This document shows, piece by piece, positions 17,056 through 45,378 of a DNA stretch of 64,000 nucleotides (position 1 is its first letter; every line of letters begins with the position of its first letter). Origin of the DNA: Christiangramia echinicola DSM 19838 (lineage in GTDB: Bacteria > Bacteroidota > Bacteroidia > Flavobacteriales > Flavobacteriaceae); contig NZ_AUHG01000010.1 of the NCBI RefSeq assembly GCF_000423065.1, forward strand, positions 310,001 through 374,000. The letters run 5' to 3'. The notes below the pieces were generated by a model. That model worked only from the letters and a program-made list of their open reading frames with translations. It was not told the DNA's origin and ran no database searches. A program made the translations under genes and the position numbers.

Positions 17056-17150
17056 TACTTGTTTATTTTAAAAAATTACACATACTTTGTTGATGCTCAT
17101 TTGTTATTTCGGTAATAGAAGCCTTGATGAATTTCTGTAAAAAGCTGCAA

Positions 17151-18041
17151 ATGGATAAGAAAATTTTAGGTGTTGATATTGGTGGAACAAAAATTCAACT
17201 GGGAATCGTTGAGGATTCAAAAATCATAAAGGAAATTAAATTCCCCACCCTTTCCGGGGCTTCAAAAGAAGATATAATTCAAAATTTGATAAGGGGTATA
17301 GAATCCCTGGGAAATGAGAGTTTTCAAGGAATTGGAATTGGAGTTCCTGGTCTGGTTGATGAAAATAACGGGATAGTTTACGACCTTTTAAATATTTCGT
17401 CGTGGAAAGAAGTTCATTTAAAAAAACAACTCGAGGAGCATTTCCATATTCCGGTGAGGATCACCAATGATGCAAATGTCTTTGCGATTGGAGAGAAAAT
17501 ATTCGGAAAAGGTAGCAATTATAAGAATTTGATAGGAATTACAATGGGAACGGGTTTTGGTACCGGGATCATTGCTAATCATAGATTATATTCCGGAAGT
17601 TTTTCCAGTGCAGGAGAATTAGGAAGTATTCCTTATTTAGGAAAGACTATTGAAGATTATTGCAGCGGGAAATTCTTTAAAAATCAGTATGGTCTTAAAG
17701 GAGCGAATGTATTTAAAGATGCAGAAAAAGGCGAAAAATATGCTTTGAAGATCCTGGAAGAATTTGGAGAGCATTTGGGAAATGCGATTAATCATATTCT
17801 TTATATACTTTCACCCGAAGCAATCTTATTGGGAGGTTCTGTAAGTAAGTCTTTTAAATTTTTTGAAGCCGGGATGCTTCATGCCATTAAAGACTTTCCC
17901 TTTAAAAGAGTTACAGATCAATTGGTTATTGAGCCTTCAGACATGGAGAATATTTCAATTTTAGGAGCAGCTGCTTTGATTATTTCTGAATCTAAGGAAT
18001 ACAATACGAACAATTCTAATCAAAACACAATTTTACCATAA
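17151..18041 (+). CDS. ROK-family sugar kinase, probable amino-sugar (MurNAc/GlcNAc) kinase
   Basis: A 296-residue cytoplasmic ATP-dependent sugar kinase. The phosphate-1 loop GVDIGGTKIQLG, the catalytic NDANVFAIGE segment and the GTGFGTGII loop are present. The family's usual zinc-binding CxCGxxGCxE cluster is reduced to IEDYCSGKFFKN, and the usual GEhGH is replaced by GELGSIP, so the zinc site is probably lost. Position at the head of an operon ending in murQ suggests phosphorylation of MurNAc and/or GlcNAc at C6 after import; glucose cannot be excluded. Earlier starts exist (TTG 17124, ATG 17127), but the ATG at 17151 best fits the family N-terminus. Confidence 0.85.
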   Translation: MDKKILGVDIGGTKIQLGIVEDSKIIKEIKFPTLSGASKEDIIQNLIRGIESLGNESFQGIGIGVPGLVDENNGIVYDLLNISSWKEVHLKKQLEEHFHIPVRITNDANVFAIGEKIFGKGSNYKNLIGITMGTGFGTGIIANHRLYSGSFSSAGELGSIPYLGKTIEDYCSGKFFKNQYGLKGANVFKDAEKGEKYALKILEEFGEHLGNAINHILYILSPEAILLGGSVSKSFKFFEAGMLHAIKDFPFKRVTDQLVIEPSDMENISILGAAALIISESKEYNTNNSNQNTILP

Positions 18042-18060
18042 ACCTCATTTCTAATACAGC

Positions 18061-19350
18061 ATGACAAATTCAATAGCAAAAGATAATACTTCATCTAAAG
18101 CAAACGGAAATACTACCCGCTCCATCATTATCATAGGTGCGTTGTTTTTCATTTTCGGGTTTGTTACCTGGTTAAACTCCCTGTTGATTCCTTACCTGGA
18201 AATTGCCTGTGAGCTAACCAAGTTCCAGTCATTTTTCGTCACTTTCGCCTTTTATATAGCCTATGTCGTGATGGCTCCTTTGTCTACACGTACTCTTACA
18301 AAATTAGGTTTCAAAAAAGGAATGTCTGTAGCCCTGGTAATTATGGCTTTTGGTGCCTTACTCTTTATTCCGGCAGCAATTACAAGAACTTATCTCATAT
18401 TCCTTACCGGGTTATTCATCATGGGAAGCGGACTGGCTATTCTACAAACGGCCTCCAATCCTTATGTGACCATTGTGGGTCCTGCGGAAAGTGCGGCAAA
18501 GCGTATTAGTATCATGGGGATCTGTAATAAACTTGCGGGTGCCATTGCTCCTATATTAATCGGATTCTTTTTGCAATTAGAAAAGGCTGATGCATTACAG
18601 GCTGAAATTTCCAGTTTAACTTCAGCAGAAAGAATAAATGAGCTAAATGAAATGGCTTTAAGGGTAATTCCACCGTATATAGGAATTATAGTGGTATTAC
18701 TACTTTTAGCAATATGGGTTTATAAATCCAGCTTACCAGAAGTAGATACCGATGAAGAAGATGAGAGTCTTTCTTCTACCAACGCTACCAAGAAAAGTGT
18801 ATTTGATTTTCCGCACGTAATATTGGGTGTAATTACCCTGTTTCTATATGTAGGAGTAGAAGTTATTGCTGCCGACAGTATTATAAGTTATGGAGCCTCA
18901 CAGGGAATAGCGCTAACTACCGCTAAATATTTTGCTACCGGGACAATGGTGGCCATGGTAATAGGGTATATCATAGGGATTATCAGCATTCCAAAGCTAA
19001 TTTCACAAGAGAATGCTTTAAGAGTTTCTGCGGTATTAGGGATTCTGTTTTCGATCCTGGCTATTTTCACCGATGGTTATATTTCCCTTGCTTTTATTGC
19101 CCTGCTGGGACTGGCGAATTCCTTGATGTGGCCGGCAATATGGCCTATGGCTCTTGCTGATGTGGGAAGATTCACTAAAGCCGCGTCTTCCTTACTAGTG
19201 ATGGGAATTGCCGGGGGCGCGATAATTCCGCTTGCATATGGTGCTCTGGCTGAAGAGTGGAACCCGCAGCAAGCCTATTGGGTGATGATCCCTTGTTATT
19301 TATTCATACTGTACTTTGCAATTTCTGGATATAAAATTAGAAAATCATGA
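18061..19350 (+). CDS. FHS-family MFS sugar permease, NagP-like
   Basis: A 429-residue inner-membrane transporter with 12 predicted helices. The first helix and loop (FFIFGFVTWLNSLLIPYLEIACEL) and the motif LQTASNPYVTIVGP are hallmarks of the fucose/hexose/GlcNAc proton symporters (FucP, GluP, NagP). Its place between a sugar kinase and murQ points to uptake of GlcNAc and/or MurNAc. It overlaps the creatininase gene by four bases (ATGA), showing translational coupling. Family call is firm; the substrate is inferred from context. Confidence 0.88.
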   Translation: MTNSIAKDNTSSKANGNTTRSIIIIGALFFIFGFVTWLNSLLIPYLEIACELTKFQSFFVTFAFYIAYVVMAPLSTRTLTKLGFKKGMSVALVIMAFGALLFIPAAITRTYLIFLTGLFIMGSGLAILQTASNPYVTIVGPAESAAKRISIMGICNKLAGAIAPILIGFFLQLEKADALQAEISSLTSAERINELNEMALRVIPPYIGIIVVLLLLAIWVYKSSLPEVDTDEEDESLSSTNATKKSVFDFPHVILGVITLFLYVGVEVIAADSIISYGASQGIALTTAKYFATGTMVAMVIGYIIGIISIPKLISQENALRVSAVLGILFSILAIFTDGYISLAFIALLGLANSLMWPAIWPMALADVGRFTKAASSLLVMGIAGGAIIPLAYGALAEEWNPQQAYWVMIPCYLFILYFAISGYKIRKS

Positions 19351-20108
19351 GACCTTATATATTATCGGAAAGTAATTGGAAATCGGTAAAGCAGGAAAAA
19401 ACGGAAGTTGCCGTTTTAACCTGGGGTGCTACTGAAGCTCATAATTATCACTTGCCCTACGGGACCGATAATTATCAAATTGAAGCGATTGCTGCAGAAG
19501 CCGGTAAGATTGCTTCGAAAAAAGGTGCAAAGCTTAAGGTGCTACCAAATATTCCTTTTGGAGTGAATACCGGTCAGGCAGATATTGAACTGGATATGAA
19601 TTTAAATCCAAGTACACAGTTTGCAATACTTTCCGATATTATTGAGGTGTTAAATCGTCAGGGAATTTATAAACTGATTTTATTGAACGGTCACGGCGGT
19701 AACAACTTCAAACCAATTCTAAGGGAATTAGGACTCAAATATCCAAAAATGCTACTGGTCACTTCTAATTTCTTCGACGTAGTGGATAAATCTCAATTTT
19801 TTGAGGAAGAAGGAGATCATGCAGATGAAATGGAAACCAGCCTTGTGATGTATTTGAAACCTGAATTGGTTTCAGATTTAAAGGAAGCGGGAAATGGGAA
19901 AGAAAATAAATCCAGAATCACAGGAATACGAGAAGGCTGGGCCTGGGCAGAAAGACAATGGTCTATGGTTACCGAAGATACCGGGATCGGGAATCCCAGA
20001 AAGGCCACAAAAGAAAAAGGAGAAGGCTTTTTTAAAGCCGTTACCGAAAAACTGGCAAATCTAATTCTGGAGATTTCTGAGGTAGATATAAAAAACAGGT
20101 ACGAATAG
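19347..20108 (+). CDS. Creatininase-family metal-dependent amidohydrolase
   Basis: A 253-residue cytoplasmic protein without a signal peptide. Creatininase-fold metal ligands are recognisable: the Glu-His pair in WGATEAHNYHLPYGTDN with its downstream Asp, the central LNGHGGNN motif, and the late Glu in EGDHADEMETSL. Known members open the cyclic amide of creatinine, hydrolyse formamides or process the mycofactocin precursor. None of these reactions belongs to textbook murein recycling, yet the gene overlaps the permease gene and precedes the hexosaminidase and murQ. A cyclic or N-acyl amino-sugar amide is a plausible substrate, but this is speculation. Confidence 0.82.
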   Translation: MRPYILSESNWKSVKQEKTEVAVLTWGATEAHNYHLPYGTDNYQIEAIAAEAGKIASKKGAKLKVLPNIPFGVNTGQADIELDMNLNPSTQFAILSDIIEVLNRQGIYKLILLNGHGGNNFKPILRELGLKYPKMLLVTSNFFDVVDKSQFFEEEGDHADEMETSLVMYLKPELVSDLKEAGNGKENKSRITGIREGWAWAERQWSMVTEDTGIGNPRKATKEKGEGFFKAVTEKLANLILEISEVDIKNRYE

Positions 20109-20132
20109 TTTCAGGCTTTTTAAACAGTAGAT

Positions 20133-21734
20133 ATGAATTCAAAATTCAACAAATTTCAAGTTTTTTATTTATTGGTTATACTTCTTAATTTCTCATGTTA
20201 TGCAACACAAGCATTGCCTGAAAAAGTGAAAAAAGAAGATATTCCTGCTATTATTCCGGCGCCACAAAATGTTGAATGGGGAACTGGATTTTATAATTTC
20301 CCTGAAAATTTGAAGGTTTGTTATAATACCGAGAGTAAGAATTCAATCCAATGGCTGGAGAAATTGTTGGCCGTTACAAATATTAAATCCGAATTTGACA
20401 ATGGTGATGATTGCGGAAACTGGCAAATTTCGGTTGATCCAGAATTGAAAGAACAATTAGGAGAAGAGGGTTATCAATTAAAGATAAATACTTCCGGAAT
20501 TAGCTTGAAAAGTGCGACAGATGCTGGAATGTTCTACGGAATTCAAACCCTAAGACAGATGTTCCCGGCTGCAATTGAAAACGGAAAAGTTTCTTCTGAT
20601 TTCAAATTGAGAACGGTAGAGATAACCGATAAGCCATTATATTCGTGGAGAGGAAGTATGCTAGATATTGCCAGGAGTTTTCTTTCTAAAGAATATATAA
20701 AGAAACATATCGACAGGATGGCTCTTTATAAAATGAATAGATTACATCTTCATTTAAGTGATGATCAGGGCTGGCGAATCGAGATAAAAGAATATCCAAA
20801 ATTAACCGAAATAGGAGGGAAGAGTACGGTTAAAAATGGGAGAGCCGGTTACTTAACTCAGAAAGAGTATATAGAATTACAGGAATATGCAGCTAAACGA
20901 AATGTCGTTATAGTTCCGGAAATAGATATGCCGGGTCATATTTATGCTGCATTGGTCTCTTACCCTGAACTAAATTGTGAGAATAATAAAAATATTGAGC
21001 CAAAAAGAGCTGAGCCGCCAAATCTTTATGAGGGTTATAAAGTGGGGTGGACAAAATTATGTCTGGAAGATCCCACAACTTATCAATTTGTAGATACTAT
21101 TGTTAAGGAATTGGCTGAAATTACAGTCGGAGACTGGATACATATTGGCGGAGACGAAATAGAAGACCCCTTATACGAAGAATTTATTCAAAAGGCTGAT
21201 TCCATAGTTCGTAAATTCGATAAAACAGCAATTGGTTGGGAAGAAAGCGCTAAGGCAGAATTGAGTGGTGATTTTGTGGTACAGCGGTGGAATGATCAGA
21301 CGCCTATTGGAGAGAACCAGAAGATTATAGATTCTTTCTGTAAGTTTTTCTACCTGGATCACGGAAATGTCACTGACCAGGAAAACACTTATAAATGGTG
21401 CCGTAAAGAAGGCTTAAGTCTTGAAACTGTTTACAGTTATCAAACAGATGATAAACGAGTAATTGGCGTTGAGGCTCCCGTATGGAGCGAGTTGGTAATT
21501 AGTGACGACCGTGCCGATGATCGACTATGGCCAAGGAGTATAGCAGTCGCGGAAATTGGTTGGAGTAAAGCCGAAAATAGAAATTTCCAGGACTTTACTG
21601 GAAGGCTTGCGAGACATGCTTATAGATTAGAAAATCTCGGAATTAAATATTTTAAGAGTCCTGAAGTAAAATGGGAAACGACCAGAGAAAAAGGAATTTT
21701 CTCTGAAAAACTTTCAAAAGAAGAAGATGAGTAA
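20133..21734 (+). CDS. GH20 beta-N-acetylhexosaminidase, exported
   Basis: A 533-residue glycosidase releasing terminal beta-GlcNAc or GalNAc by substrate-assisted catalysis. An export signal with a possible lipid-attachment Cys22 (LLNFSC) precedes a GH20b-like domain (about 35-160) and the catalytic barrel (about 165-510). The family motifs LHLSDDQGWRIEI, VPEIDMPGH and HIGGDE are present, giving the catalytic pair Asp341-Glu342. It is shorter than many Bacteroidota GH20 enzymes, lacking C-terminal accessory modules. It overlaps murQ by eight bases. The pairing suggests GlcNAc release from murein saccharides, though chitin oligomers could also be substrates. Confidence 0.92.
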   Translation: MNSKFNKFQVFYLLVILLNFSCYATQALPEKVKKEDIPAIIPAPQNVEWGTGFYNFPENLKVCYNTESKNSIQWLEKLLAVTNIKSEFDNGDDCGNWQISVDPELKEQLGEEGYQLKINTSGISLKSATDAGMFYGIQTLRQMFPAAIENGKVSSDFKLRTVEITDKPLYSWRGSMLDIARSFLSKEYIKKHIDRMALYKMNRLHLHLSDDQGWRIEIKEYPKLTEIGGKSTVKNGRAGYLTQKEYIELQEYAAKRNVVIVPEIDMPGHIYAALVSYPELNCENNKNIEPKRAEPPNLYEGYKVGWTKLCLEDPTTYQFVDTIVKELAEITVGDWIHIGGDEIEDPLYEEFIQKADSIVRKFDKTAIGWEESAKAELSGDFVVQRWNDQTPIGENQKIIDSFCKFFYLDHGNVTDQENTYKWCRKEGLSLETVYSYQTDDKRVIGVEAPVWSELVISDDRADDRLWPRSIAVAEIGWSKAENRNFQDFTGRLARHAYRLENLGIKYFKSPEVKWETTREKGIFSEKLSKEEDE

Positions 21735-22533
21735 ACAAAATCCGGATACCGAAAAAGTTTCCAATTATAATCATCTGGAAAAGATGAATACCCTGGAATT
21801 ACTTTCGAATATTAATAAGGAAGATCAAACGATCGCAGGAAATGTCAAAAAGCAGATCACTTATATTGAAAAACTTGTGGATATCATCGTGCCTAAAATC
21901 AGGGCCGGTGGAAGATTATTCTATATAGGAGCTGGAACCAGCGGAAGGCTGGGTGTCCTTGATGCTTCCGAATGTCCTCCTACTTTCGGGGTTAGCCCGG
22001 GGATCGTTATTGGGCTTATAGCAGGGGGAGATAAAGCCCTTAGGGATGCCGTGGAGAATGCTGAAGATGATACAGATCAGGCCTGGAAGGATCTCCAGGA
22101 ATACAATATCTCTGAAAAGGATGTAGTGATTGGGATTGCAGCTTCAGGAACTACTCCTTATGTTATTGGGGGGATCAAGGATAGTCGTAAAAATGGAATT
22201 GCGACAGGTTGCATTACCTGTAGCTCAGGAAGTCCTCTTGCTAATGCTTCAGAATATCCCATTGAAGTAGTTACCGGTCCTGAATTCGTTACGGGAAGCA
22301 CCAGGATGAAAGCAGGAACCGCTCAGAAACTTGTTTTAAATATGATCTCCACTGCGGTAATGATAAAGCTGGGAAGGGTGAAAGGAAATAAGATGGTAGA
22401 TATGCAGCTTTCTAACGTTAAACTTGTTGGTCGTGGAATTAGAATGATTATGGAAGAACTGGGAGTCTCCGAAAAAGAAGCAGAAAAGCTTTTAAAAGAG
22501 CACGGTAGTGTACGAAAGGCTATTAATAAATAA
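21727..22533 (+). CDS. murQ: N-acetylmuramic acid 6-phosphate etherase
   Basis: Cleaves the D-lactyl ether of MurNAc-6-phosphate, giving GlcNAc-6-phosphate and D-lactate; the defining enzyme of MurNAc catabolism. The SIS domain (about 45-215) carries IGAGTSGRLGVLDASECPPT, with the catalytic Glu82 equivalent to Glu83 of E. coli MurQ, and the second acid region AVENAEDD around Glu113. FVTGSTRMKAGTAQK completes the signature. Slightly shorter (268 residues) than the roughly 300 of enterobacterial MurQ. Its start lies inside the GH20 gene, so translation is coupled. An AT-rich 158-base gap follows before susC. Confidence 0.96.
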   Translation: MSKQNPDTEKVSNYNHLEKMNTLELLSNINKEDQTIAGNVKKQITYIEKLVDIIVPKIRAGGRLFYIGAGTSGRLGVLDASECPPTFGVSPGIVIGLIAGGDKALRDAVENAEDDTDQAWKDLQEYNISEKDVVIGIAASGTTPYVIGGIKDSRKNGIATGCITCSSGSPLANASEYPIEVVTGPEFVTGSTRMKAGTAQKLVLNMISTAVMIKLGRVKGNKMVDMQLSNVKLVGRGIRMIMEELGVSEKEAEKLLKEHGSVRKAINK

Positions 22534-22682: not shown

Positions 22683-22691
22683 AAGCTAACT

Positions 22692-25600
22692 ATGGGAAAA
22701 AATCACAAAATTTTTGTTCTTCTATTTTCTCTGTTTTCTGTAAGTCTTTGGGCACAGCAAAAACAAATTTCAGGAGATGTATTCGATGAGGACGGAATGC
22801 CGCTTCCAGGGGTGACCGTTCAGGTCGAAAATACCGCAAAAGGAACAGTAACCGATTTTGATGGCCATTTTGAACTCTCTGTACCAGACAAAAAGAATGT
22901 TGTTATCGTATTATCTTCGCTAGGTTTCGAAAAACAAAAGGTAACAGTTGGAGATCAAACACAATTTAATATTACTCTTAAAACAGATGCAGAAAGTCTG
23001 GATGAAGTTGTAGTAGTTGGGTATGGTAACCAGAAAAGAAGTGATCTTACCGGTGCTGTTGCCACAGTAGATACAGATGTTCTTGAATCCAGACCTATTA
23101 CCGATGTTGGTAGAGGTTTACAGGGAACTACTCCCGGGCTAACCATTGGTTCTTCCAGTGGTCAGATTGGTCAAGATCCATCTATTAAATTAAGGGGGTC
23201 TGTGGGAACCCTTGGAACAGGTGGAGGTGCAGAACCTTTGATCCTGGTAGATAACGTGGAGGTTCCTAGCTTACAGTCTATAAACCCTCAGGACATTGAG
23301 AGTATTTCTGTCTTAAAAGATGCTGCCTCTACTTCTATTTATGGAGCTCGTGGTGCATGGGGTGTGATCCTTATCACTACCAAGAATGGAAAAAGAGGAA
23401 TGGCTCCTACAGTTAATTATTCCAATAACTTTGCATGGGCAACACCTACTAACACTCCTAAAGTTGCTCCGGCGGCAGAAGGAGCTGAAATGGCCTTTGC
23501 GGCTGTTAACCGAAGAATTCCTTCTTTAGATGCTTTCGGAATTGTGGGAATGTATATAGACCAGACCGCTATAGATAAAATGTATGAGTGGGAAGAATTA
23601 TACGGAGGCCAGGATCTGGGAATGGAAATGGTTGAAGGACGTGACTACGAAATTAGAGATGGAAGATTGTTTTTCTACCGTCCATGGGATCCCAGGGAAC
23701 TTTTCATTAAGGAATGGGCACCACAGCAAAAACATGATCTTTCAGTTTCAGGAGGAAGTGAAAACACTAATTATTACCTAGGTTTAGGATACTTAAATCA
23801 GGGTGGTGTTTATAAAGCTAATCCAGATGAATATGAAAGATATAACTTAAACTTAAGTGTAAATACGAACATCACTGATTGGTTAGAGGTTCGTGCTAAA
23901 GTTTTAAATACCAATTCAATTACTACCGAACCATTCAAATTTGGTTCTAATACCTATGATGCCTGGTATTATACCACACGTTGGCCAGCCCAGTATCCTT
24001 ACGGGACTGTAGATGGCAAACCTTTCAGAAATCATATTTCTGAAGTTGAACAGGCAAAAATGAATGAGAATACTTATTCTTTATCAAGGGTGAATCTTGG
24101 AACTACTATTAGTCCATTAGAAAATCTTGATATTAACTTCGATTATACTCACGATAGAGTAGAGGAGCATGAACACCAGACGGGCGGGACTTTATACGCT
24201 TATAACTTCTGGGCTCAGGGCCCTGATTTTTCTTATGTGCCTTACTCAAGTGCTGCTTACGATCGAGTTCAGTATAATTCTGAATGGAGTAGAAGGAATA
24301 CCGCCAAACTTTTCGGAATTTATGATAAGGAATTTGGAGATCACAAATTTAAGTTGACTCTGGGAGGAGATATGGAAGAATATGAAGAATGGTTCCATTA
24401 TTCTCAAAGAAGAAATCTACTGAATCCTGATCAGGGAGAATTAGCACTGGCAACCGGAGATCAATTCGTAGGTGGTGATCGTAATAAATGGTCTACACTT
24501 GGAGCATTTGGACGTCTTAACTATTCTTACAAGGATAAATTCCTATTAGAGGCTAATGGACGTTATGATGGCTCTTCTAGATTATCTGCCGATGAAAAAT
24601 GGGCTTTCTTCCCATCTTTTTCTGCTGGTTATGTAATGAGTGAAGAAGATTTTATGGAGCCATTAGATCCAACTTTGTCATTCTTGAAGTTTAGAGTTTC
24701 TTATGGTTCTATTGGAAACCAGAACTCATATTTATCTAATATATACCGTGTAATGTCTTCTTATGGATCTAACTGGGTAATAGATGGAAATGAGCAGGTG
24801 GCAGTTGGAACTCCAGGCGCAATTCCTTCTTCTTTAACCTGGGAAACTGTAACCACTCTGGATTTTGGTCTTGATGCAAGATTTTTTAGCGATAAATTAG
24901 GATTAACGTTTGACTGGTATGAAAGAACAGTAAGTGATATGCATAGTGCAGGGGTAACCCTTCCTAGCTCTTACGGAACTTCATCTCCAATACGTAATTA
25001 CGGAGAGCTGCAAACAAGAGGTTGGGAATTGGCTATAGATTTTAGCCATCAGTTTGAAAATGGTCTTAGCATTAATGCTTTGGCTACCCTGACAGATTAT
25101 AAAGAAAGAATTACCAAATACGCCAATACTACGCAAGGGATAAATTCTTATTACGAGGGAAAAGTTCTTGGAGAGATCTGGGGATTTGAAACAGACAGGT
25201 TCTTTACTGAAGATGATTTTGATGCTGAAGGGAATTATGCAGATGGAGTTCCTTCTCAGGATATTTTCGAAACCAACGGATGGTTCCAGTACGGTCCTGG
25301 AGATATAAAGTATAAGGATCTTGATGGAGATGGTGAGATCAATTACGGTTCAAGAACTGTAGACGATCATGGTGATATGAAAAGGATAGGAAATACAACT
25401 CCTAGATACCAGTATGGATTACAACTAGGAGCAAACTGGTTAGGATTCGATTTAAGCATGTTTATGCAGGGTGTTGGGAAACGTGATTTCTGGGCTAGTG
25501 GCCCGGTGTTTATTCCTGGATACAGATATGCTGAAGGTTGGTATGAGCACCAATTAGATTACTGGACTCCAGAAAATACAGATGCTTACTACCCGAGGCC

Positions 25601-25913: not shown

Positions 25914-25931
25914 TTAAAAACTTCTTAAATA

Positions 25932-27644: not shown

Positions 27645-27663
27645 TATTATCTCCGAATTAGTC

Positions 27664-27702
27664 AAAGGTCCTTTGGAATTTAATCTAAAGGACCTTTCTT
27701 TG
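27664..27702 (+). terminator. Intrinsic terminator after susD
   Basis: AAAGGTCCTTT at 27664-27674 pairs perfectly with AAAGGACCTTT at 27687-27697 across a 12-base loop and is followed by CTTTG. It separates susCD from the GHL10 hydrolase gene, allowing higher susCD expression. Confidence 0.8.
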
Positions 27703-27732
27703 AATATAAAAGTTTTATTTCCAGACTAACTA

Positions 27733-29349: not shown

Positions 29350-29352
29350 CGA

Positions 29353-30798: not shown

Positions 30799-30806
30799 TA
30801 TAAAAT

Positions 30807-31826: not shown

Positions 31827-31839
31827 ATATCTAAATACT

Positions 31840-34983: not shown

Positions 34984-35000
34984 AACTATTTTATTCAATT

Positions 35001-36767: not shown

Positions 36768-36776
36768 GATTCTCTT

Positions 36777-37712
36777 TTATAAATACTTTTGGTAGAGATG
36801 ATAAAGGATTTTTAATTCCTTATCATTCAAATATGGCTTTTTATAGTTCTCCTGAATAAAATGAAGCTTAAAGGCTTTAATGGCAGCCGGCAGATCTGAG
36901 ATATCATAACCAATGATCTTTAGTGCCATTGCGTAATCAAAATCTGCGGGAATCACCTGGGGAAATATATACCTGTTTAAAAATGGAAGCGTGTTTTGAT
37001 CGGGTTGCATTTCAAAACCCGAAGGGAAAGCTTTAAAAAATTCAGAGGCCAGTTGTAGATTAGCCACTTTTTCCTCATCGTACCAAAGCCCATAGCCTTC
37101 TTCTGCCAGTCGTTTCCAGGGAAAATTTGCATTAGGATCTACCTTTCTACTTGGAGCAATATCTGAATGGCCTATAAAATTTTTAGCAGGAATATTAAAT
37201 TTTTCTTTCAGCTGATCTAATACAGCCAGTAAACTCTGGATTTGAGGTTCAGAAAATTCTTCATAGCCATTATTGTCCAGCTCAATTCCTATCGAGGATG
37301 AATTAAGATCTGAATTATTTCCCCACATGCCAGCGCCTCCGTGCCATCCTCGAAAATAATCATTCAACATCTGATAGATTTCGCCATCTCTTGATATTAC
37401 GTAATGTGCACTTACCTGAGTTCTTGGTAAAGTAAAGGTCTTAAGAGTTTGCTGAACAGAGTCCTGTGCCGTATGATGTATAACTACATAATTAGGTTTT
37501 CTTAAGTTGAAATTGGTTGTTCCAACCGGATACTTTCCATAATTGAGACTGTCTGTTTGTTTACCTTTATCTGGAGTGAACTCTGTAAGATCCTGGGAAA
37601 GATCCTTGGCTCTTTTTTTATAAATTTTATTCGTTTTAGAATATGGATTTGAACCACAGGAACAGATAAGAATTCCTATGATCAAATAACTTAAAAGTAC
37701 CCGTAATTTCAT
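36777..37712 (-). CDS. N-acetylmuramoyl-L-alanine amidase, AmiD-like lipoprotein
   Basis: A 311-residue outer-membrane-type lipoprotein (lipobox before Cys19 in LIIGILICSC) of the Amidase_2 family, releasing stem peptides from MurNAc. Zinc-site motifs are NYVVIHHTAQD, HYVISRDGEIYQML, GWHGGAG, IGIELDNNGYE and IGHSDIAPSRKVDPN. The GWHGG tract and the DPG-like end place it with AmiD/AmpD-type enzymes. A helical C-terminal part (about 225-311) resembles the peptidoglycan-binding tail of AmiD. Second amidase of the operon, with 10-base spacers on both sides. Confidence 0.92.
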   Translation of the reverse strand: MKLRVLLSYLIIGILICSCGSNPYSKTNKIYKKRAKDLSQDLTEFTPDKGKQTDSLNYGKYPVGTTNFNLRKPNYVVIHHTAQDSVQQTLKTFTLPRTQVSAHYVISRDGEIYQMLNDYFRGWHGGAGMWGNNSDLNSSSIGIELDNNGYEEFSEPQIQSLLAVLDQLKEKFNIPAKNFIGHSDIAPSRKVDPNANFPWKRLAEEGYGLWYDEEKVANLQLASEFFKAFPSGFEMQPDQNTLPFLNRYIFPQVIPADFDYAMALKIIGYDISDLPAAIKAFKLHFIQENYKKPYLNDKELKILYHLYQKYL

Positions 37713-37722
37713 TTAGAATTTT

Positions 37723-39642
37723 TTAGAATTTCCAGCGAACAAAGGCTTCCATCGCCTCGTAGTTAGCAAGGCCTAATTTGTGATAATTCACGGCGGTTTC
37801 CCGGTTTCTCTCTTCAGCTCTGACCCAGAACTCCCTTTCGTCATCACCTGGGAAAACCGGCCTGTCTTTTTGGGATTGGTGCTGGAAAATAGCATGCCTT
37901 TTCCTTTGAACTTCCTGGGGAGAAAGAGGAACCGCCATTTCAATTTCGTGTACCTGAAATTCCTGCCATGCGCCACGGTATAACCAGAACCAGCAATCCT
38001 TTACCCAGTCTTCAGTCTTTTTAAGACGCTTTAGAGCCTCCTCTACAATTCTAAAGCAAATGATATGGGTTCCATGGGGATCGGCGAAATCACCTGCTGC
38101 AAAAACCTGTTGAGGTTTTATTTTCTGAAGTAGTTCCATGGTTAGAACTATATCTTCTTCGGTAACAGGATTCTTTTTTCGTTTTCCGGTTTCATAGAAT
38201 GGCAAAGCCATAAAATGTATCTGCTCATCTTTAAGGCCGGCATAACGTGCTCCGGCAATGGCTTCTGTTTTTCGTATAAAGCCTTTTACTTCCTGAATTT
38301 CTTCCAGATCTATATCGTTTGGCTGTTTTGTTTTCAGGAAGTTTCGCATTTTCTCGTAAATCGAGGTTAATTTCGAAATGTCTTCTCCTATACTTTTCTT
38401 GAAATCTATGGCAAACTCAATGTACCTCAGCACATCGGTATCCCATACCGCTGTATTTCCAGAAGTCTGGTACGCTACATGTACATCATGAACCTGGTCT
38501 ACAAGCCTGATAAATGTTCCTCCCATAGAAATTACGTCATCATCGGGATGAGGGCTAAAGATTAAAGAGCGTTTATGAGAAGGCTCTTTTCTTTCTGGCC
38601 TTTGAGAATCGTCAGCATTAGGTTTCCCTCCTGGCCAACCCGTAATGCTATGCTGCAGTTGGTTAAAAACATGGATGTTAATGTCGTAAGCTGGTCCCTG
38701 TTCTGTAGCTAGCTGGGCCATTCCGTTAGAATTATAATCTTCTTCGGTTAATTTAAGAATAGGTTTATTAATGGTCCCGGATAACCAGATCACTGCTTTT
38801 TTAATCAGTTGAGGTGTCCAGTTACAGTCTTTCACCAGCCAGGGTGTATCAAATCTAGTGAGCTCAGATGCCGCGTCTTCGTCCAGGATGAATTCTACAT
38901 TATCTGATAGTTGTAAAAAAGTAGCTGGAACGCTTGAAGAGATCTCTCCTTCCACAGCTTTCCTTATTATAGGTGCTTTTTTCTTACTCCAGGCCATAAG
39001 TATGATCTCCTTAGCCTTGAAAATGGTCCCGATTCCCATGGTGATCGCCTTGGTAGGAACATTTTCCTTTCCTCCAAAATCCCTTGATGCATCACGACGG
39101 GTAAGATCATCTAAAGTTACCAGTCTTGTTCCGGAGTTTGGAGCAGATCCAGGTTCGTTAAAACCTATATGCCCAGTTCTACCAATACCCAGAACCTGAA
39201 GATCCAGACCGCCAACTTCGGTGATCTTTCTTTCATAATCCAGACAGTAATTGGCGATATCTTCTTTTTTTAAGGTACCATCGGGAATATGAATATTTTC
39301 CCTTTTAATATCTATATGATTAAAAAGCTGTTCATCCATAAAGCGAACATAGCTCTGTTTGGCTTCTGGATGCATGGGGTAATATTCGTCCAGGTTGAAA
39401 GTAATCACATTTTGAAAGCTTAAACCTTCTTCTTTATGCATTCTGGCAAGTTCTGTGTAAACTTCCACAGGAGTGGCTCCAGTTGCCAGCCCTAGAATCG
39501 CATTTTCTCCTTTCTCCTTTTTCCTAATTATAATATCTGCAATTCTGCGAGCGACCTTTATTGAAGCGATATGTTCATCTTTATAAACACTAACTGCCAG
39601 TTTTTCAAATCGGGTTTCTTCTAATAGATTTAATCTCGCCAT
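37723..39642 (-). CDS. nagB: Glucosamine-6-phosphate deaminase fused to PIG-L/LmbE deacetylase
   Basis: A 639-residue cytoplasmic two-domain protein. Residues 1-270 are NagB, which turns glucosamine-6-phosphate into fructose-6-phosphate and ammonia, with LGLATGATP, the base in FNLDEYYP (Asp84) and GHIGFNEPGS (His158, Glu163). The residue matching Asp141 of E. coli NagB is Thr156 (GIGRTGHIG), a departure from the classical active site. From about 357 a PIG-L deacetylase domain begins with IFSPHPDDDVISMGG (zinc ligands His365, Asp368) and a later DPHGTH. PIG-L enzymes de-N-acetylate amino sugars, so the fusion may replace NagA, which is absent from the cluster. Confidence 0.92.
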   Translation of the reverse strand: MARLNLLEETRFEKLAVSVYKDEHIASIKVARRIADIIIRKKEKGENAILGLATGATPVEVYTELARMHKEEGLSFQNVITFNLDEYYPMHPEAKQSYVRFMDEQLFNHIDIKRENIHIPDGTLKKEDIANYCLDYERKITEVGGLDLQVLGIGRTGHIGFNEPGSAPNSGTRLVTLDDLTRRDASRDFGGKENVPTKAITMGIGTIFKAKEIILMAWSKKKAPIIRKAVEGEISSSVPATFLQLSDNVEFILDEDAASELTRFDTPWLVKDCNWTPQLIKKAVIWLSGTINKPILKLTEEDYNSNGMAQLATEQGPAYDINIHVFNQLQHSITGWPGGKPNADDSQRPERKEPSHKRSLIFSPHPDDDVISMGGTFIRLVDQVHDVHVAYQTSGNTAVWDTDVLRYIEFAIDFKKSIGEDISKLTSIYEKMRNFLKTKQPNDIDLEEIQEVKGFIRKTEAIAGARYAGLKDEQIHFMALPFYETGKRKKNPVTEEDIVLTMELLQKIKPQQVFAAGDFADPHGTHIICFRIVEEALKRLKKTEDWVKDCWFWLYRGAWQEFQVHEIEMAVPLSPQEVQRKRHAIFQHQSQKDRPVFPGDDEREFWVRAEERNRETAVNYHKLGLANYEAMEAFVRWKF

Positions 39643-39676
39643 AATTCTGTATTATAATTTGTTTTATTTGGTCCAG

Positions 39677-40945
39677 CTAAGATTCAGATTTCAGCATGGA
39701 CATCTGATTTTTAAAAATATCATCCATTACAGCAATCGTCCCACCATATAAACTTGAGTTTGAGCCAAGATTGGAAAGTTCTATACTTGTTCTTTCCTTT
39801 AGCTGCATCATACAGTAAGTATTGGTAGATTGCTGAATTGGAGTGGTTATAAATTGTTTTGCTTTAGCTATTTCGCCTTCCAGGATTATTAATTCCGGGT
39901 TGAATATCTGGATTAGGATCGCAATACCTTTTCCCAGGCTTATTCCAATCTCAGATAATAAGTTGATCGCAAACTGGTCTCCTTTGTTTGCTGCCTGGAT
40001 GATGATCGCAGGATCCATTTTTTTGAAATTATCTCCTTTAAGGTCATTTAAAACTGAAGTTTGTCCTTGTTTTAAACCTTCTTTCGCTTTTCTTACCAGT
40101 GCCAGACCTGATGCTTCCATCTCCAGACATCCTCTTTTCCCGCAATGACATAGTAATCCGTCTTCCGTCATAGGAATGTGACCAAATTCTCCAGCAAATC
40201 CAGAGTGGCCGGTATGCATTTTACCTCCCATGATAATTCCGAGGCCTACACCCCAGTCCATGGAGATCACCAGTACATTTTCTTTGTCTTTGGCAATACC
40301 AAACCTATATTCGGCCAGGCAGGCACTTTTGGTATCATTCAGAATAACCACAGGTTTTTTGAATTTCTTTTCAAACTTATTTTGTAGCGATTCCGGTTCC
40401 TGTTCTGTCAGGTAATAGGTGTAGTTCTTACCTTCAGTCGTTGAAACCAGACCGGGCATACTAATTCCTATTCCTAGAAGCTTATCGGCATCTATTCCAG
40501 AATTAGCAATCACTTCCTGTGCTTTTTCATGCAGGAGATCTACAATATTGGATTTTGGAGAAATTTCTGTTGCAATTGATTCCTCGGTAATAATAGAATG
40601 ATTGTTATCTGTAATGGCAATTTTGATCTTAAATCGTTTGATATGTATACTTAAGACAAAAAATGAATGTTCTTTAAGACCATAGAGGTCAGGTTTTCGG
40701 CCACCTTCAGATTTTCCCTGTCCAGATTTTACAACTATTCCACTTTCCATCAATTGATTGATCAGGGCCATGGAGGTAGGTAAGCTAATATTGAATTTTG
40801 AGCATATCTCCGCATTGGAAGTGCTTCCATTTAGAAAAAGATACTTGATGATTTTAATTTTCTGAAGAAATTTTTTTCGTTCAATATTACTAATATCAAC
40901 CAGAGTATCTTTAGTTATGAGGAAATCCTGTAAATTTTTAGTCAT
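39677..40945 (-). CDS. ROK-family transcriptional regulator (NagC/Mlc-like)
   Basis: A 422-residue regulator with an N-terminal winged helix-turn-helix (about 25-85: STSNAEICSKFNISLPTSMALINQLMES) and a sugar-sensing ROK domain with the intact zinc cluster CHCGKRGCLEMEASG and NDTKSACLAEYRFG. NagC and Mlc relatives repress amino-sugar genes until an effector such as GlcNAc-6-phosphate binds. The ATG at 40945 is chosen; a TTG at 40987 is possible. It heads the minus-strand block and is divergent from NagX, so autoregulation and control of the whole locus from the 194-base intergenic region are likely. The effector (MurNAc-6-P or GlcNAc-6-P) is inferred. Confidence 0.9.
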   Translation of the reverse strand: MTKNLQDFLITKDTLVDISNIERKKFLQKIKIIKYLFLNGSTSNAEICSKFNISLPTSMALINQLMESGIVVKSGQGKSEGGRKPDLYGLKEHSFFVLSIHIKRFKIKIAITDNNHSIITEESIATEISPKSNIVDLLHEKAQEVIANSGIDADKLLGIGISMPGLVSTTEGKNYTYYLTEQEPESLQNKFEKKFKKPVVILNDTKSACLAEYRFGIAKDKENVLVISMDWGVGLGIIMGGKMHTGHSGFAGEFGHIPMTEDGLLCHCGKRGCLEMEASGLALVRKAKEGLKQGQTSVLNDLKGDNFKKMDPAIIIQAANKGDQFAINLLSEIGISLGKGIAILIQIFNPELIILEGEIAKAKQFITTPIQQSTNTYCMMQLKERTSIELSNLGSNSSLYGGTIAVMDDIFKNQMSMLKSES

Positions 40946-41052
40946 ATAACAAATTGAAAATTTTAATAATAGCTCAAAATACTTCAATTATTTAATTTTC
41001 CTAAACCAGAAATTAAAATTATAAAAAAAATCCAATTTCAAGAAGTATTAAA

Positions 41053-41096
41053 TAAAAATTTTACATAAGATCTGATAATTAATAAAAATTTATACT
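41053..41096. promoter_or_regulatory. Tandem AT-rich candidate operators between regulator and NagX
   Basis: ATAAAAATTTTACATAAG (41053-41070) matches the site before the ROK kinase at 17 of 18 positions; a second partial copy ATAAAAATTTATAC lies at 41083-41096, 30 bases on, about three helical turns. They sit in the divergent spacer of the ROK regulator and NagX. Binding by the regulator is inferred, and the AT richness of all spacers calls for caution. Confidence 0.35.
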
Positions 41097-41139: not shown

Positions 41140-42288
41140 ATGAAAGGTACAGCTCAAAATACAGCAACACCGGGTAAACAGCGATATCTCGCACTGGATG
41201 TTTTACGTGGAATGACCATTGCTCTTATGATACTGGTAAATACTCCCGGTAGTTGGTCTACCATCTATGCTCCGTTTAAACATGCAGCCTGGCATGGATT
41301 TACCATTACCGATCTTGTTTTTCCTACCTTTTTATTTGTAGTGGGAAATGCAGCAAGTTTCAGTCTTCGTAAATATGAGAAGCAATCTGAAGCTGCTTTT
41401 CTAAAAAAGGTTGTCAAAAGAAGTTTACTTATTTTTCTAATAGGTCTGCTTCTTAATGCTTTTCCATTTGTAACCCGGGAGGCGGGTGAGCTGGTTCTAA
41501 AGGATTTTAGTAAGCTTCGTATCATGGGAGTACTACAGCGCATTGCCTTATGTTATTTATTTGGTTCTCTCCTTCTTCATTTTTTAAAACTAAAGTGGAT
41601 TCTGGTTTTTAGTTCATTTCTACTAGCTACTTATTGGTTAGTGATGTGGTATTTTGGAACTCATCCAGACCCATACAGTCTGGAGCATAATGTCGCTTTA
41701 AAATTTGATTTATTAGTTTTCCCGGCAGAAAACTTATGGAGAGGCTTTGGTAGAGCATTTGACCCTGAAGGTTTGTTAAGCACAATTCCGGCAATAATAA
41801 ATGTAATAGCGGGTTATGTAGCAGGAAAATTTATCCAGAATTCAGGAAATAATATGAATACGGTCCTGAAATTAGCTGTTGCGGCTATGATTCTCCTTGG
41901 AGTAGCCCTGATTTGGTCTCCATATTTTCCAATTAATAAAGCGATCTGGACAAGTACTTTTGTCTTATACAGTACAGGCTGGGATCTTCTTATTCTGGGA
42001 GGATTGATTTTAACCATAGAGGTATTTGGAATTAAAAAATGGACATATTTCTTTCAGGCATTCGGTAAAAATCCGTTATTCATATTTATTATGTCTGGTG
42101 TGCTGGTCATGCTTATGGCGGTAATTTTAATAGAAAACCAATCGATGAAGGCGTGGATTTATAATAATTTCTACCTCACCTGGTTAAGTGATTATAATGC
42201 TTCACTTGTATTCGCTATTAGTTATATGTTACTCATGTGGTTAATTGGGTATGTCCTGGACAGAAATAAAATTTATATAAAAGTTTAA
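41140..42288 (+). CDS. nagX: NagX-like transmembrane acyltransferase-family protein (DUF5009/HGSNAT-like)
   Basis: A 382-residue inner-membrane protein with about 10-11 hydrophobic helices. The N-terminal motif YLALDVLRGMTIALMILVN and the downstream AAWHGFTITDLVFPTFLF are diagnostic of the heparan-alpha-glucosaminide N-acetyltransferase-like group, including NagX encoded in GlcNAc gene clusters of Shewanella and Xanthomonas. Human HGSNAT acetylates glucosamine ends across a membrane using acetyl-CoA. A comparable role, acetylating glucosamine residues of de-acetylated wall sugars in the periplasm, is plausible but unproven. It is followed by nagZ after 13 bases. Confidence 0.85.
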   Translation: MKGTAQNTATPGKQRYLALDVLRGMTIALMILVNTPGSWSTIYAPFKHAAWHGFTITDLVFPTFLFVVGNAASFSLRKYEKQSEAAFLKKVVKRSLLIFLIGLLLNAFPFVTREAGELVLKDFSKLRIMGVLQRIALCYLFGSLLLHFLKLKWILVFSSFLLATYWLVMWYFGTHPDPYSLEHNVALKFDLLVFPAENLWRGFGRAFDPEGLLSTIPAIINVIAGYVAGKFIQNSGNNMNTVLKLAVAAMILLGVALIWSPYFPINKAIWTSTFVLYSTGWDLLILGGLILTIEVFGIKKWTYFFQAFGKNPLFIFIMSGVLVMLMAVILIENQSMKAWIYNNFYLTWLSDYNASLVFAISYMLLMWLIGYVLDRNKIYIKV

Positions 42289-42301
42289 GAACTCAATACA
42301 G

Positions 42302-45250
42302 ATGAAATTAAGCAAGACTTTATTTATAATTAGTATCAGTTTGTTATTCGGAAGCCTTCAGGCGCAGGATTCAGATATCAAAAAACCCGATTTTCTGCAA
42401 TATGAAAACAGTAAATGGGTGGACTCTATCATGGCAGAACTTTCTCCGGATGAGCGAATTGCGCAACTATTTATGATCCCGGCTTTTTCTAACAAGGGAG
42501 AAGAGCATACACAGGAAGTACTGAAACAGATTAAAGAATATAAGATTGGTGGGCTTATTTTTATGCAGGGTGATCCAAAATCCCAGTTAGAACTGATGAA
42601 TGACTATCAGTTGGCCTCCGAAGTTCCTTTGATTGGGGCTATAGACGCGGAATGGGGACTTGGGATGAGATTGGAAAACTCGATAAGTTTCCCTTACCAG
42701 ATGGCTTTAGGAGCAATTCAGGATGATGAACTCATTTATGATATGGGTGTTGAGATCGCGAGACAAATTAAACGTTCCGGGCTACATATAAATTTTGGTC
42801 CTGTGGTAGATGTGAATAATAATCCACAGAACCCAGTGATAAATTATCGCTCTTTTGGAGAGGATAAGGAAAATGTTAGCAGAAAAGGAATTGCCTATAT
42901 GAAGGGAATGCAAAGTCAGAATCTCCTGGCAACAGCAAAACATTTCCCCGGACATGGAGATACCGATACCGATTCTCATTATGCTTTACCACAGATCAAC
43001 CATCCATTCGAAAGGCTGGATGATCTTGAAATGTATCCTTTTAAGGAATTGATCAACGCCGGAATTGGAGGGGTGATGGTCGCACATTTGGATATTCCTG
43101 CTCTTGATTCTACAGGTGCACCATCTACCTTATCTAAACCTATTATAACCGGAATATTAAAGGAACGTCTTGGATTTAAAGGCTTGATAGTTACCGATGC
43201 TATGAATATGAAAGGTGTTGCCGAAGGAAATGAGCCGGGAGTGGTAGATAAAGATGCAGTACTTGCCGGAAATGATCTACTTGAATTTTCTGAAGATATA
43301 CCTAAAGCTATCACCGAAATTAGAAATGCGATTAATAGCGGATTGATTTCCCAGGCTGAAATTGACGAACGTTGCCGAAAAATTTTGGCTGTAAAACAAT
43401 GGGTTGGTCTTAATAAATATAAATCAATACCTGTTGAAAATATAGAAGAACAGGTGAACAGTCCTGAAGCAAAATGGTTGAATAGAAGACTGGTTGAAGC
43501 ATCTCTTACCTTGCTGAAAAATGAGAATTCTTTACTACCTCTTCAAAAACTGGATACCTTAAAGATTGCTTCTGTTTCTATTGGTGCAACTAAGGAAACA
43601 GAATTTCAGAAAACCTTAAATCTATATAACAAGGTTGATAACTTTCAGTTGAGCCGTGAAGCTGATGATTCAGAAATTAATGAGCTTAAAGAAATCCTGG
43701 AAGCCTATAATATGGTGGTAGTTGGCTTGCATGATTTCAGCATAAGACCTAGAAATAAAATCGAGCTTGCTAATGGGGTTCAGTCTTTCATTTCAGAACT
43801 TGCTGTGCAAAAAAATACGGTTTTCAGTCTTTTTAAAAATCCTTACGTAATTAATAGCCTTGAAAATATTGAAGAGGCAGATGTACTGATCGAGGCTTAT
43901 CAGGATTCTGAGCTGGCTCAGGAGCTTGCGGCACAATTGATATTTGGAGGCGTAGGGGCGTCGGGGAAACTTCCTGTTACGGTTGGCGAGAAATTTAAAG
44001 CCGGCAATGGTTTGGATTTAAAAGGAGGAATTCGTTTTAAATATACCGTTCCAGAAGATGCAGGAATGAATTCTAAAAAACTTGGGAATGCTGTAGATTC
44101 TCTCATGCATCAGGCAATGAATGCCAAAGCAACTCCGGGTGGAGTGGTACTGGTAGCAAAAGATCAGAAAGTGGTTCTTCATAAAGCCTATGGTTTTCAT
44201 AAATACAGTGATACAATCAAGGTAGAAAAGACAGATCTTTATGATCTTGCTTCTGTAAGTAAGATTTCAACAGCTTTACCGGCGATCATGAAATTATCTG
44301 ATGAAGGTAAATTTGACCTGGAGGCCGGGATCGATGATTATTTGCCATATTTCAGGAATTCTAATAAAGAGGGAATAGCTTTCAGACAGATTCTTGCTCA
44401 CCAGGCACGTTTTAAGCCCTGGATACCCTACTGGAAAAATACGTTAAGAGATAATGGAAGTTTTAGATGGAATACTTTTAAAAAAGATTCTTCAGCCAGG
44501 TATCCGGTACGCGTGAGCGATGAACTGTGGTTACATAGAAATTATAAAAAAAAGATCTTTAAAGCGATCAAAAAGTCTCCTTTGGAGGCTGAGGCAAAAT
44601 ATAAATATTCCGGACTATTATTCTATCTACTGCCAGATATTGTTGAGCGGCTTACCAATGAAGATTTCATTAAATATATCAACGAGAACTTTTATGATAG
44701 ATTAGGAGCTACAACCGTTACCTATAATCCTTCAGAAAAATTTGAATTGAACAGGATCGTCCCAACTGAAAATGATTTTAATTTCAGGCACGAACAGATC
44801 CATGGGAATGTGCATGATGAGGGCGCGATAATGATGGGTGGGGTTTCTGCCAACGCCGGTTTGTTTGCTAATGCCAATGACCTGGCGAAATTAATGCAAA
44901 TGTATTTGAATATGGGAGATTACGGCGGTATGCGTTTTATCGATGAGTCTACTTTAAAGGATTTCACAAAAACCCAATTTCCCGAAAATAATAATCATAG
45001 AGCACTGGCTTTTGATAAGCCTTACCTTGAATATAGAGGAGAAAAGAGTAATACTGCAAAAGACGCAAGTGCAGAAAGTTTCGGACATACAGGATTCACC
45101 GGAACAATGGTCTGGATGGATCCAAAGGAAGATCTGCTCTATATATTTCTGTCTAACAGAGTGGTGCCAACCCGGGAAAATACAAGGCTCTACAAGCTAA
45201 ATACCAGGACCCAGATTCAGCAGGCGTTGTATGATTCCATAGAGGAGTAA
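42302..45250 (+). CDS. nagZ: GH3 beta-N-acetylglucosaminidase NagZ fused to serine beta-lactamase-family domain
   Basis: A 982-residue exported protein. A signal peptide (to LQAQ, about residue 21) precedes the GH3 domain (about 35-390) with the NagZ-specific dyad loop AKHFPGHGDTDTDSHYALP and the nucleophile Asp299 in VTDAMNMKGV, then a GH3 C-terminal domain (about 400-575). From about residue 595 a serine hydrolase of the class C beta-lactamase fold follows, with Ser651-V-S-Lys654, KYSG as the tyrosine motif and GHTGFTG replacing KTG. NagZ removes GlcNAc from GlcNAc-MurNAc. The C-terminal domain may be a D-amino-acid peptidase or esterase acting on stems; it need not destroy antibiotics. Confidence 0.93.
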   Translation: MKLSKTLFIISISLLFGSLQAQDSDIKKPDFLQYENSKWVDSIMAELSPDERIAQLFMIPAFSNKGEEHTQEVLKQIKEYKIGGLIFMQGDPKSQLELMNDYQLASEVPLIGAIDAEWGLGMRLENSISFPYQMALGAIQDDELIYDMGVEIARQIKRSGLHINFGPVVDVNNNPQNPVINYRSFGEDKENVSRKGIAYMKGMQSQNLLATAKHFPGHGDTDTDSHYALPQINHPFERLDDLEMYPFKELINAGIGGVMVAHLDIPALDSTGAPSTLSKPIITGILKERLGFKGLIVTDAMNMKGVAEGNEPGVVDKDAVLAGNDLLEFSEDIPKAITEIRNAINSGLISQAEIDERCRKILAVKQWVGLNKYKSIPVENIEEQVNSPEAKWLNRRLVEASLTLLKNENSLLPLQKLDTLKIASVSIGATKETEFQKTLNLYNKVDNFQLSREADDSEINELKEILEAYNMVVVGLHDFSIRPRNKIELANGVQSFISELAVQKNTVFSLFKNPYVINSLENIEEADVLIEAYQDSELAQELAAQLIFGGVGASGKLPVTVGEKFKAGNGLDLKGGIRFKYTVPEDAGMNSKKLGNAVDSLMHQAMNAKATPGGVVLVAKDQKVVLHKAYGFHKYSDTIKVEKTDLYDLASVSKISTALPAIMKLSDEGKFDLEAGIDDYLPYFRNSNKEGIAFRQILAHQARFKPWIPYWKNTLRDNGSFRWNTFKKDSSARYPVRVSDELWLHRNYKKKIFKAIKKSPLEAEAKYKYSGLLFYLLPDIVERLTNEDFIKYINENFYDRLGATTVTYNPSEKFELNRIVPTENDFNFRHEQIHGNVHDEGAIMMGGVSANAGLFANANDLAKLMQMYLNMGDYGGMRFIDESTLKDFTKTQFPENNNHRALAFDKPYLEYRGEKSNTAKDASAESFGHTGFTGTMVWMDPKEDLLYIFLSNRVVPTRENTRLYKLNTRTQIQQALYDSIEE

Positions 45251-45361: not shown

Positions 45362-45378
45362 TTACGCTAACCTACTAT

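Follow-up and report, generated by a model that had tools for sequence, protein, structure and literature searches.

When analyzing the open reading frames (ORFs) and translations of a 64-kb stretch of DNA (the window) from contig 1 of the 3.51-Mb genome of Christiangramia echinicola DSM 19838, we found a locus of 18 intact genes (17124-45250) that is probably a polysaccharide-utilization-type system for peptidoglycan, with murein as its substrate. Four observations carry this reading: the gene content of the locus, the motifs of its enzymes, its fixed chromosomal site in the genus, and the recurring linkage of its SusC/SusD pair (SusCD) with murein genes. The pair belongs to an orthologous family that occurs in at least four classes of Bacteroidota, and we lean toward the view that members of this family carry peptidoglycan fragments through the outer membrane. 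In the same view, which we favor somewhat, SusCD of Christiangramia would be an interchangeable module: it would occupy a fixed slot next to a conserved murein core and trade places with a different importer for glycans containing N-acetylglucosamine (GlcNAc), so that related species would differ in the kinds of wall or glycan debris open to them as food. Debris of bacterial walls is a plentiful food source. With a marker SusD family, metagenomes and proteomes could be read for peptidoglycan feeding, and the crossing of the outer membrane by wall fragments becomes a directly testable question.

Gene content of the locus

An earlier note on this DNA had described 18 adjacent genes as a nearly complete peptidoglycan utilization locus. 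All 18 were recovered as ORFs where it had placed them, and the families it had named were matched by Pfam and NCBIfam profiles, which we scored against their curated cutoffs; nearest structures were taken from PDB. The genes form three blocks, namely, 11 genes on the forward strand (17124-33075), 5 on the reverse strand (33142-40987), and 2 on the forward strand (41140-45250). Overlaps aside, the intergenic spacing inside units is 3 to 34 nt, with the exceptions of murQ-susC (158 nt) and susD-digH (88 nt). The features are as follows (MurNAc, N-acetylmuramic acid).

17124..18041, +: ROK sugar kinase, most likely a GlcNAc kinase, possibly a MurNAc kinase (PF00480, 171 bits)
18061..19350, +: major facilitator superfamily (MFS) importer of the NagP/GluP type (TIGR01272 above cutoff; NagP_SO3503 392 bits, below its cutoff of 625)
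19347..20108, +: creatininase-family amidohydrolase (PF02633; closest PDB entry 3lub)
20133..21734, +: GH20 beta-N-acetylhexosaminidase, probably exported (PF00728; HIGGDE motif, N terminus judged by eye)
21727..22533, +: MurQ, MurNAc-6-phosphate etherase (NF003915 383 bits, cutoff 168; TIGR00274 319 bits, cutoff 302)
22692..25913, +: SusC, TonB-dependent outer-membrane importer (TIGR04056, 858 bits)
25932..27644, +: SusD lipoprotein, surface lid (PF07980; lipobox; SusD fold by AlphaFold and Foldseek)
27645..27732, +: hairpin with a U-rich tail directly 3' of susD (-23.5 kcal/mol, z -4.06)
27733..29349, +: GHL10 lipoprotein for Cwp19/DigH-type glycan-strand cleavage (PF02638; Cwp19 5oq2, E 1.7e-73)
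29353..30798, +: SSF sodium symporter, candidate MurNAc importer (PF00474; MurT-like at the superfamily level)
30807..31826, +: dipeptide epimerase of the L-Ala-D/L-Glu type (MR_MLE; top PDB entries 3iji/3ijl/3ijq)
31762..33075, +: peptidase of the YkfC/dipeptidyl-peptidase VI type, lipoprotein (NLPC_P60 plus SH3; PDB 3npf, 3pvq/4r0k, 3h41; lipobox)
33142..35058, -: metallophosphoesterase with a pyrroloquinoline quinone (PQQ)-type beta-propeller, probably exported (PF00149 plus PF13360)
35001..36767, -: fusion of Amidase_2 and NamZ (exo-N-acetylmuramidase), probably exported (PF01510, PF07075, PF20732; PDB 4k05, 4jja)
36777..37712, -: second amidase, AmpD-like, with a lipoprotein-like N terminus by eye (PF01510, 116 bits)
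37723..39642, -: NagB plus PIG-L deacetylase, possibly a joint GlcNAc-6-phosphate deacetylase and GlcN-6-phosphate deaminase (NF002557, 1055 bits)
39677..40987, -: NagC-type ROK regulator (helix-turn-helix plus ROK; NagC model 211 bits, below its cutoff of 650)
41140..42288, +: NagX-type membrane acetyltransferase (PF07786; NagX 167 bits, below its cutoff of 480)
42302..45250, +: NagZ-type GH3 with a beta-lactamase-like domain, probably exported (PF00933, PF00144; Asp-His dyad motif)

The YkfC-type ORF probably has its true start near 31840. The locus has the composition of a SusCD-type system: susC and susD are adjacent, 18 nt apart, with TIGR04056 and PF07980 above cutoff, and degradative enzymes and a regulator are linked to them. 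The families of the earlier inventory stand, with the amendment that NamZ is fused to one amidase and NagZ to a beta-lactamase-like domain. For three of the genes, those for the creatininase, the phosphoesterase-propeller protein, and NagX, no clear step in murein use can be named. The creatininase-family gene (19347-20108) lies within the unit in several congeners and has no known murein step. Relatives of the phosphoesterase-propeller gene (33142-35058) accompany orthologous SusCD in 12 of 26 loci described below, and because of this the protein may have an unrecognized wall-related role. A search of plasmids gave no match of at least 60% identity, only weaker ones.

SusD orthologs and their neighbors across Bacteroidota

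A SusD-pattern scan of named genomes gave 39 loci with relatives. In an even sample of 395 genomes of the phylum, 8 had a match at E ≤1e-120, the window's own included, and 7 loci were added from it. From these 46 loci, L157 (a duplicate of L125) and L156 (no long enough SusD match) were dropped, which left 26 loci with a SusD identity of at least 54%, 9 with 33 to 54%, and 9 with less than 30%, the last being distant controls. The window and the congener G022 are outside the 26, while L120 and L121 come from the genomes listed below as congeners G012 and G015. Flanks of up to 10 kb per side were examined, some loci holding less.

The 26 orthologous loci are distributed over 13 named genera, including Salegentibacter, Arenibacter, Cellulophaga, Algoriphagus, Echinicola, Pararcticibacter, Pontibacter, and Anaerophaga, and three further genomes. 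They represent four classes, Flavobacteriia, Cytophagia, Sphingobacteriia, and Bacteroidia, each confirmed by one species. Markers near these SusD genes are digH (19 of the 26), murQ (16), the phosphoesterase-propeller gene (12), SSF (11), MurK (9), NagZ, YkfC, epimerase, and amidase (8 each), and NamZ (7); in 15 loci, susD is followed directly by digH. When the phosphoesterase and SSF are counted, none of the 26 loci is without a marker, and 24 have two or more. These two families recur without a proven murein role and were excluded from the strict marker set. With the strict set, four identity/coverage settings (the first two lenient, the last two with 40 to 50% marker identity) gave at least one marker in 25, 25, 23, and 22 of the 26 loci and at least two in 24, 22, 18, and 17. 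Strict markers were found in none of the 9 distant loci at any setting. The difference between orthologous and distant loci in having at least two markers has a Fisher p of 7.8e-7, a value which uses the counts with phosphoesterase and SSF and ignores shared ancestry.

SusC is rare near MurQ in the genomes sampled. MurQ was found at E 1e-60 in 277 of the 395 genomes, and 40 loci were hand-picked from the upper part of the listing, none from the window's family and three of them shorter than 17 kb. Two of the 40 (L204 and L212) have SusC at a distance of about 10 kb or less from MurQ; they come from a single other family, and each also has digH and epimerase homologs. Among 13 further MurQ loci from the window's family or order (two only 7 kb long), SusC was present in one (L107, with a digH homolog). 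The assignment of the SusCD pair to murein use, which the earlier note had proposed, is well supported by this rarity together with the linkage recurring over four classes. In L204 and L212, MurQ is near a different SusC, possibly in an independent murein locus. The association of SusC with murein genes may have arisen repeatedly.

The murQ-digH slot in Christiangramia

We compared 24 genomes of the genus, two of which (G010 and G023) were fragmentary and were excluded from the slot count. The murQ neighborhoods share one chromosomal site, with lepA on one side and omp3-dusB on the other where the fetched stretch reaches that far. The gene omp3 corresponds in the window to 45355-47799, which encodes an outer-membrane beta-barrel protein (OMP_b-brl_3) and adjoins dusB in the congeners whose fetched stretch extends to that end. 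The order murQ, digH, ykfC is kept in all 22 classed genomes. The kinase, NagP, creatininase, GH20, SSF, phosphoesterase, amidases, and nag genes are present in some congeners and absent from others. The gene order recurs in congeners and in Salegentibacter, and for this reason we rejected the idea of a chance run of genes.

The interval between murQ and digH has three states. The SusCD of the locus fills it in 4 of the 22 genomes (the window, G012, G015, and G022), with SusD proteins that are 80 to 83% identical. SusCD is absent from it in 12, eleven of which have no labeled or large ORF there; in the twelfth, L079, a GH18 gene lies between murQ and digH and a GH9 gene past digH. The remaining 6 (G003, G004, G005, G009, G013, and G016) have a different cassette (for example, L080:6857-15347), which consists of a CBM9-like protein, a nonorthologous SusC, a SusD-like_2 protein, and a GH18 protein, with a second GHL10-like protein in 5 of the 6; these calls come from Pfam on L080 and two L090 proteins and from blastp for all six. 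Outside the genus, a relative of the alternative cassette was found in 1 of the 395 genomes (E 1e-100, best three candidates scored per genome), where it adjoins a NagB-PIG-L gene and has no labeled murein gene nearby. Given its GH18 and this one outside relative, we rejected the idea that every SusCD in the slot serves murein.

Phylogenetic trees of lepA, murQ, and digH, with 23 rows each and one outgroup, all require seven changes of slot state, where the minimum possible is two. On the digH tree, strongly supported branches alone force a minimum of two changes for the cassette of the locus and of four for the alternative one; the corresponding minima are one and two on the murQ tree, and one and one on the lepA tree, which is weak (six of its rows cover less than half of the columns, and its strong branches force at most one change per state). 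With shuffled labels, equally low numbers arose in 8, 12, and 13 of 200 trials for the three trees, which indicates some clustering of the states as well. The slot has the look of a site where uptake modules are exchanged.

Murein enzymes, compartments, and the proposed route

We take the motifs of GH3 (KHFPGHGDTDTDSH), GH20 (HIGGDE), NlpC/P60 (DCSG), and NamZ (PEHGIRG) to be catalytic signatures. The GH3 motif agrees with KHFPGxGxxxxDSH, which we take to be the consensus of the NagZ-type Asp-His dyad; the protein scores below the cutoff of the NCBIfam beta-N-acetylhexosaminidase model NF003740 (137 bits versus 207). Both NamZ domains, PF07075 and PF20732, are above cutoff, and ybbC of Tannerella forsythia is presumably of the same NamZ family. 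The GHL10 protein has a sole PDB match, Cwp19 of Clostridioides difficile (5oq2), and we assume that Escherichia coli DigH belongs to the same GHL10 family. According to published work, Cwp19 is a peptidoglycan lytic transglycosylase (PMC6016235) and E. coli DigH is specific for denuded glycans (PMC12288456). The closest PDB entries are 3iji/3ijl/3ijq for the epimerase, dipeptidyl-peptidase VI structures and then 3h41 for the NlpC/P60 protein, and 4k05 and 4jja for NamZ. The closest solved relatives of these four proteins fit murein roles. The AlphaFold model of SusD (mean predicted local distance difference test score of 85.4, predicted template modeling [TM] score of 0.88) matched SusD-family structures in Foldseek at TM scores of about 0.5 to 0.7, with the peptide-binding RagB among the lower-ranked matches.

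N termini were read directly, with no dedicated predictor. A lipobox pattern suggests that SusD, DigH, and YkfC are lipoproteins, as does inspection by eye for the second amidase; the N termini of NamZ, NagZ, the phosphoesterase, and GH20 suggest export, and the kinase, creatininase, MurQ, epimerase, and NagB-PIG-L look cytoplasmic. If these predicted compartments are right, depolymerization would be periplasmic and sugars would reach the cytoplasm as monomers. The AmpG route of E. coli differs from such monomer entry.

The substrates, compartments, and fluxes of the route that we propose are all predicted from these assignments. Soluble murein fragments from other bacteria would be captured by SusD and imported by TonB-driven SusC. 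In the periplasm, the two amidases would strip off peptides, the Cwp19/DigH-type hydrolase would cut the bare glycan, and NagZ, GH20, and NamZ would release GlcNAc and MurNAc, while the YkfC-type peptidase would trim the peptides to L-Ala-gamma-D-Glu-type dipeptides. MurNAc may then enter the cytoplasm via the SSF symporter and GlcNAc via the NagP-type MFS importer, and both would be phosphorylated by kinases, the ROK kinase of the locus and a MurK homolog encoded elsewhere. MurQ would remove lactate, and NagB-PIG-L would deacetylate and deaminate the product to fructose-6-phosphate. The epimerase would open the dipeptide to catabolism, with the NagC-type regulator controlling the units.

The genome encodes three ROK proteins, the locus kinase among them, and an AnmK. 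In Algoriphagus and Echinicola, a BadF-type kinase gene adjoins murQ (24.8 and 31.0 bits, slightly below the Pfam cutoff of 31.5). A homolog on contig C2 of the Christiangramia genome (37% identical; 30.6 bits) matches structures labeled MurNAc kinase and GlcNAc kinase; in the MurK paper, 1ZXO and 1ZBS are given as the closest structural homologs (PMC10465942). With a MurK-family homolog elsewhere in the genome and the ROK gene missing from some congeners, we rejected the ROK kinase as necessarily a MurNAc kinase. MurQ of the locus is the sole one above cutoff in the genome, the other match having 38 bits versus 302. An AmpG-like protein scores 126.5 bits (cutoff 350). No NagA in the genome reaches its cutoff (best 30.7 bits versus 225.65), and because of this NagB-PIG-L may perform both deacetylation and deamination, doing the job of NagA.

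Regulation

The hairpin between susD and digH is present at the same place, with differing sequence, in all 13 of the orthologous loci that were folded (13 chosen from the 26). It is likely an attenuator or partial terminator between susCD and the enzymes. Within the 64 kb, AAAAATTTTAYATAAG occurs perfectly only at 17040-17055 and 41054-41069, both in divergent promoter regions. The motif was read off these two perfect sites themselves, and its matches with mismatches allowed were equaled in 9 of 100 shuffles. Copies with at most two mismatches lie upstream of the kinase gene in 6 of 10 congeners tested. These sites suggest AAAAATTTTAYATAAG as a candidate NagC operator and go no further than suggestion.

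In 12 of the 26 orthologous loci, a DeoR-type regulator is beside SusCD, where the window has the NagC-type regulator instead. Of the 12 loci with DeoR, 7 (L118, L119, L122, L123, L124, L126, and L129) have a TTGCA-type dyad upstream of susC, compared with 0 of the 14 that lack DeoR; the pattern was written after viewing some of the tested sequences, and the stretch used for L127 is upstream of a neighboring susC. The regulator and its operator seem to have been swapped between genera.

Weighing the explanations

Several results count against a peptidoglycan function. The loci with a SusD identity of 33 to 54% are mixed, with a marker in 5 of 9 when phosphoesterase and SSF are counted and in 0 of 9 at 40% marker identity. 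Even among the 26 orthologous loci, L159 has no strict marker and L128 has digH only, and these loci are not phylogenetically independent; the control group is small (9) and comes from the same scan. The fold search with SusD recovered the family and no ligand signature. The slot is not murein-only, because a nonorthologous SusCD with GH18 fills it in 6 congeners. "Almost every step" of the pathway, as the earlier note put it, goes slightly too far: a MurK-type MurNAc kinase is missing beside murQ and from the rest of the locus, where the ROK kinase stands instead; NagA, as said, has no match above cutoff in the genome; and the locus has no recognizable secreted enzyme for solubilizing intact sacculi.

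One could instead see a general amino-sugar locus, in which the cargo of SusCD would be chitin oligosaccharides or other GlcNAc-rich glycans, and the murein genes would have no more in common with it than the catabolic end at GlcNAc-6-phosphate. The GH20, NagP, NagX, NagB, NagC, and ROK types of the locus would equally suit free GlcNAc or chitin oligosaccharides, which also speaks against murein, and the GH18 cassette in the same slot, with its one outside relative by NagB-PIG-L, points the same way. So do a GH9 gene near 5 and a polysaccharide deacetylase gene near 4 of the 26 SusD orthologs, for which murein gives no direct explanation. However, the locus has no GH18, the GH18 reference was the best match for no ORF in the 26 loci (many of whose ORFs are unlabeled), and the orthologous loci keep the MurQ, DigH, NamZ, NagZ, and YkfC types, so we regard this explanation as unlikely. 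Recycling of the cell's own wall, with a housekeeping core and a SusCD that recaptures fragments lost to the medium, appears less probable still. It would agree with murQ-digH-ykfC being kept in every classed congener, 12 of them without SusCD in the slot, and with MurQ and NamZ being above cutoff in 49 and 56 of 59 relatives. Against it, those 12 congeners manage without SusCD, and the added outer-membrane importer, a second NamZ, and the GlcNAc catabolic set exceed the needs of recycling. We therefore keep peptidoglycan as the probable substrate. It is plausible that wall debris is a dedicated food; by sequence, such a role is indistinguishable from mixed salvage of GlcNAc and MurNAc.

Comparison with known systems

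The Shewanella-type nag gene layout consists of NagP, NagX, NagB, and NagR/NagC. The locus resembles it in having a NagP-like MFS importer, a NagX-like protein, NagB, and a NagC-type regulator, although the NagP, NagX, and NagC matches are below the curated cutoffs of their models. We know of no murein enzymes among Shewanella-type nag genes.

Like SusCD polysaccharide utilization loci of Flavobacteriia, the locus combines SusC/SusD, enzymes, and a regulator in one cluster. In a survey of 400 North Sea loci, a term search of the main text found neither "peptidoglycan" nor "murein" (PMC6298971). A metagenome table has "Peptidoglycan" among the predicted substrates, beside a SusCD-GT51 neighborhood (PMC11653725). 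The open-access literature examined, which leaves subscription papers mostly outside, held no SusCD locus tied experimentally to murein, and none of the open-access papers listed was seen to describe an importer that takes peptidoglycan fragments through the outer membrane of Bacteroidota.

The GlcNAc cluster of Caulobacter likewise has a TonB-dependent receptor, linked to NagA/NagB catabolism; in the sections of that paper available, the species is stated to lack MurQ and SusD is not mentioned (PMC13046382). RmNag3 of Rhodothermus marinus has the same fusion of GH3 and beta-lactamase and was assigned to peptidoglycan turnover, but it is a single gene, and the R. marinus SusCD locus described in the available text serves xylan (PMC6987092).

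Among the closest known systems is the muropeptide/MurNAc operon of T. forsythia (Tanf_08345-08385), for which the available portions of the sources name ampG, ybbC, murT, murK, and murQ (PMC5388701, PMC7670621, PMC5790795), MurT being of the sodium symporter superfamily (PMC5790795). Unlike our locus, it has no SusC/SusD among the genes named there, and it serves a MurNAc auxotroph. It holds AmpG and MurK, whose counterparts in the Christiangramia genome are elsewhere or weak. Both systems are from Bacteroidota and share MurQ, a MurNAc importer of the sodium symporter type (a candidate in our locus), and, as we propose for Christiangramia, the use of foreign cell walls.

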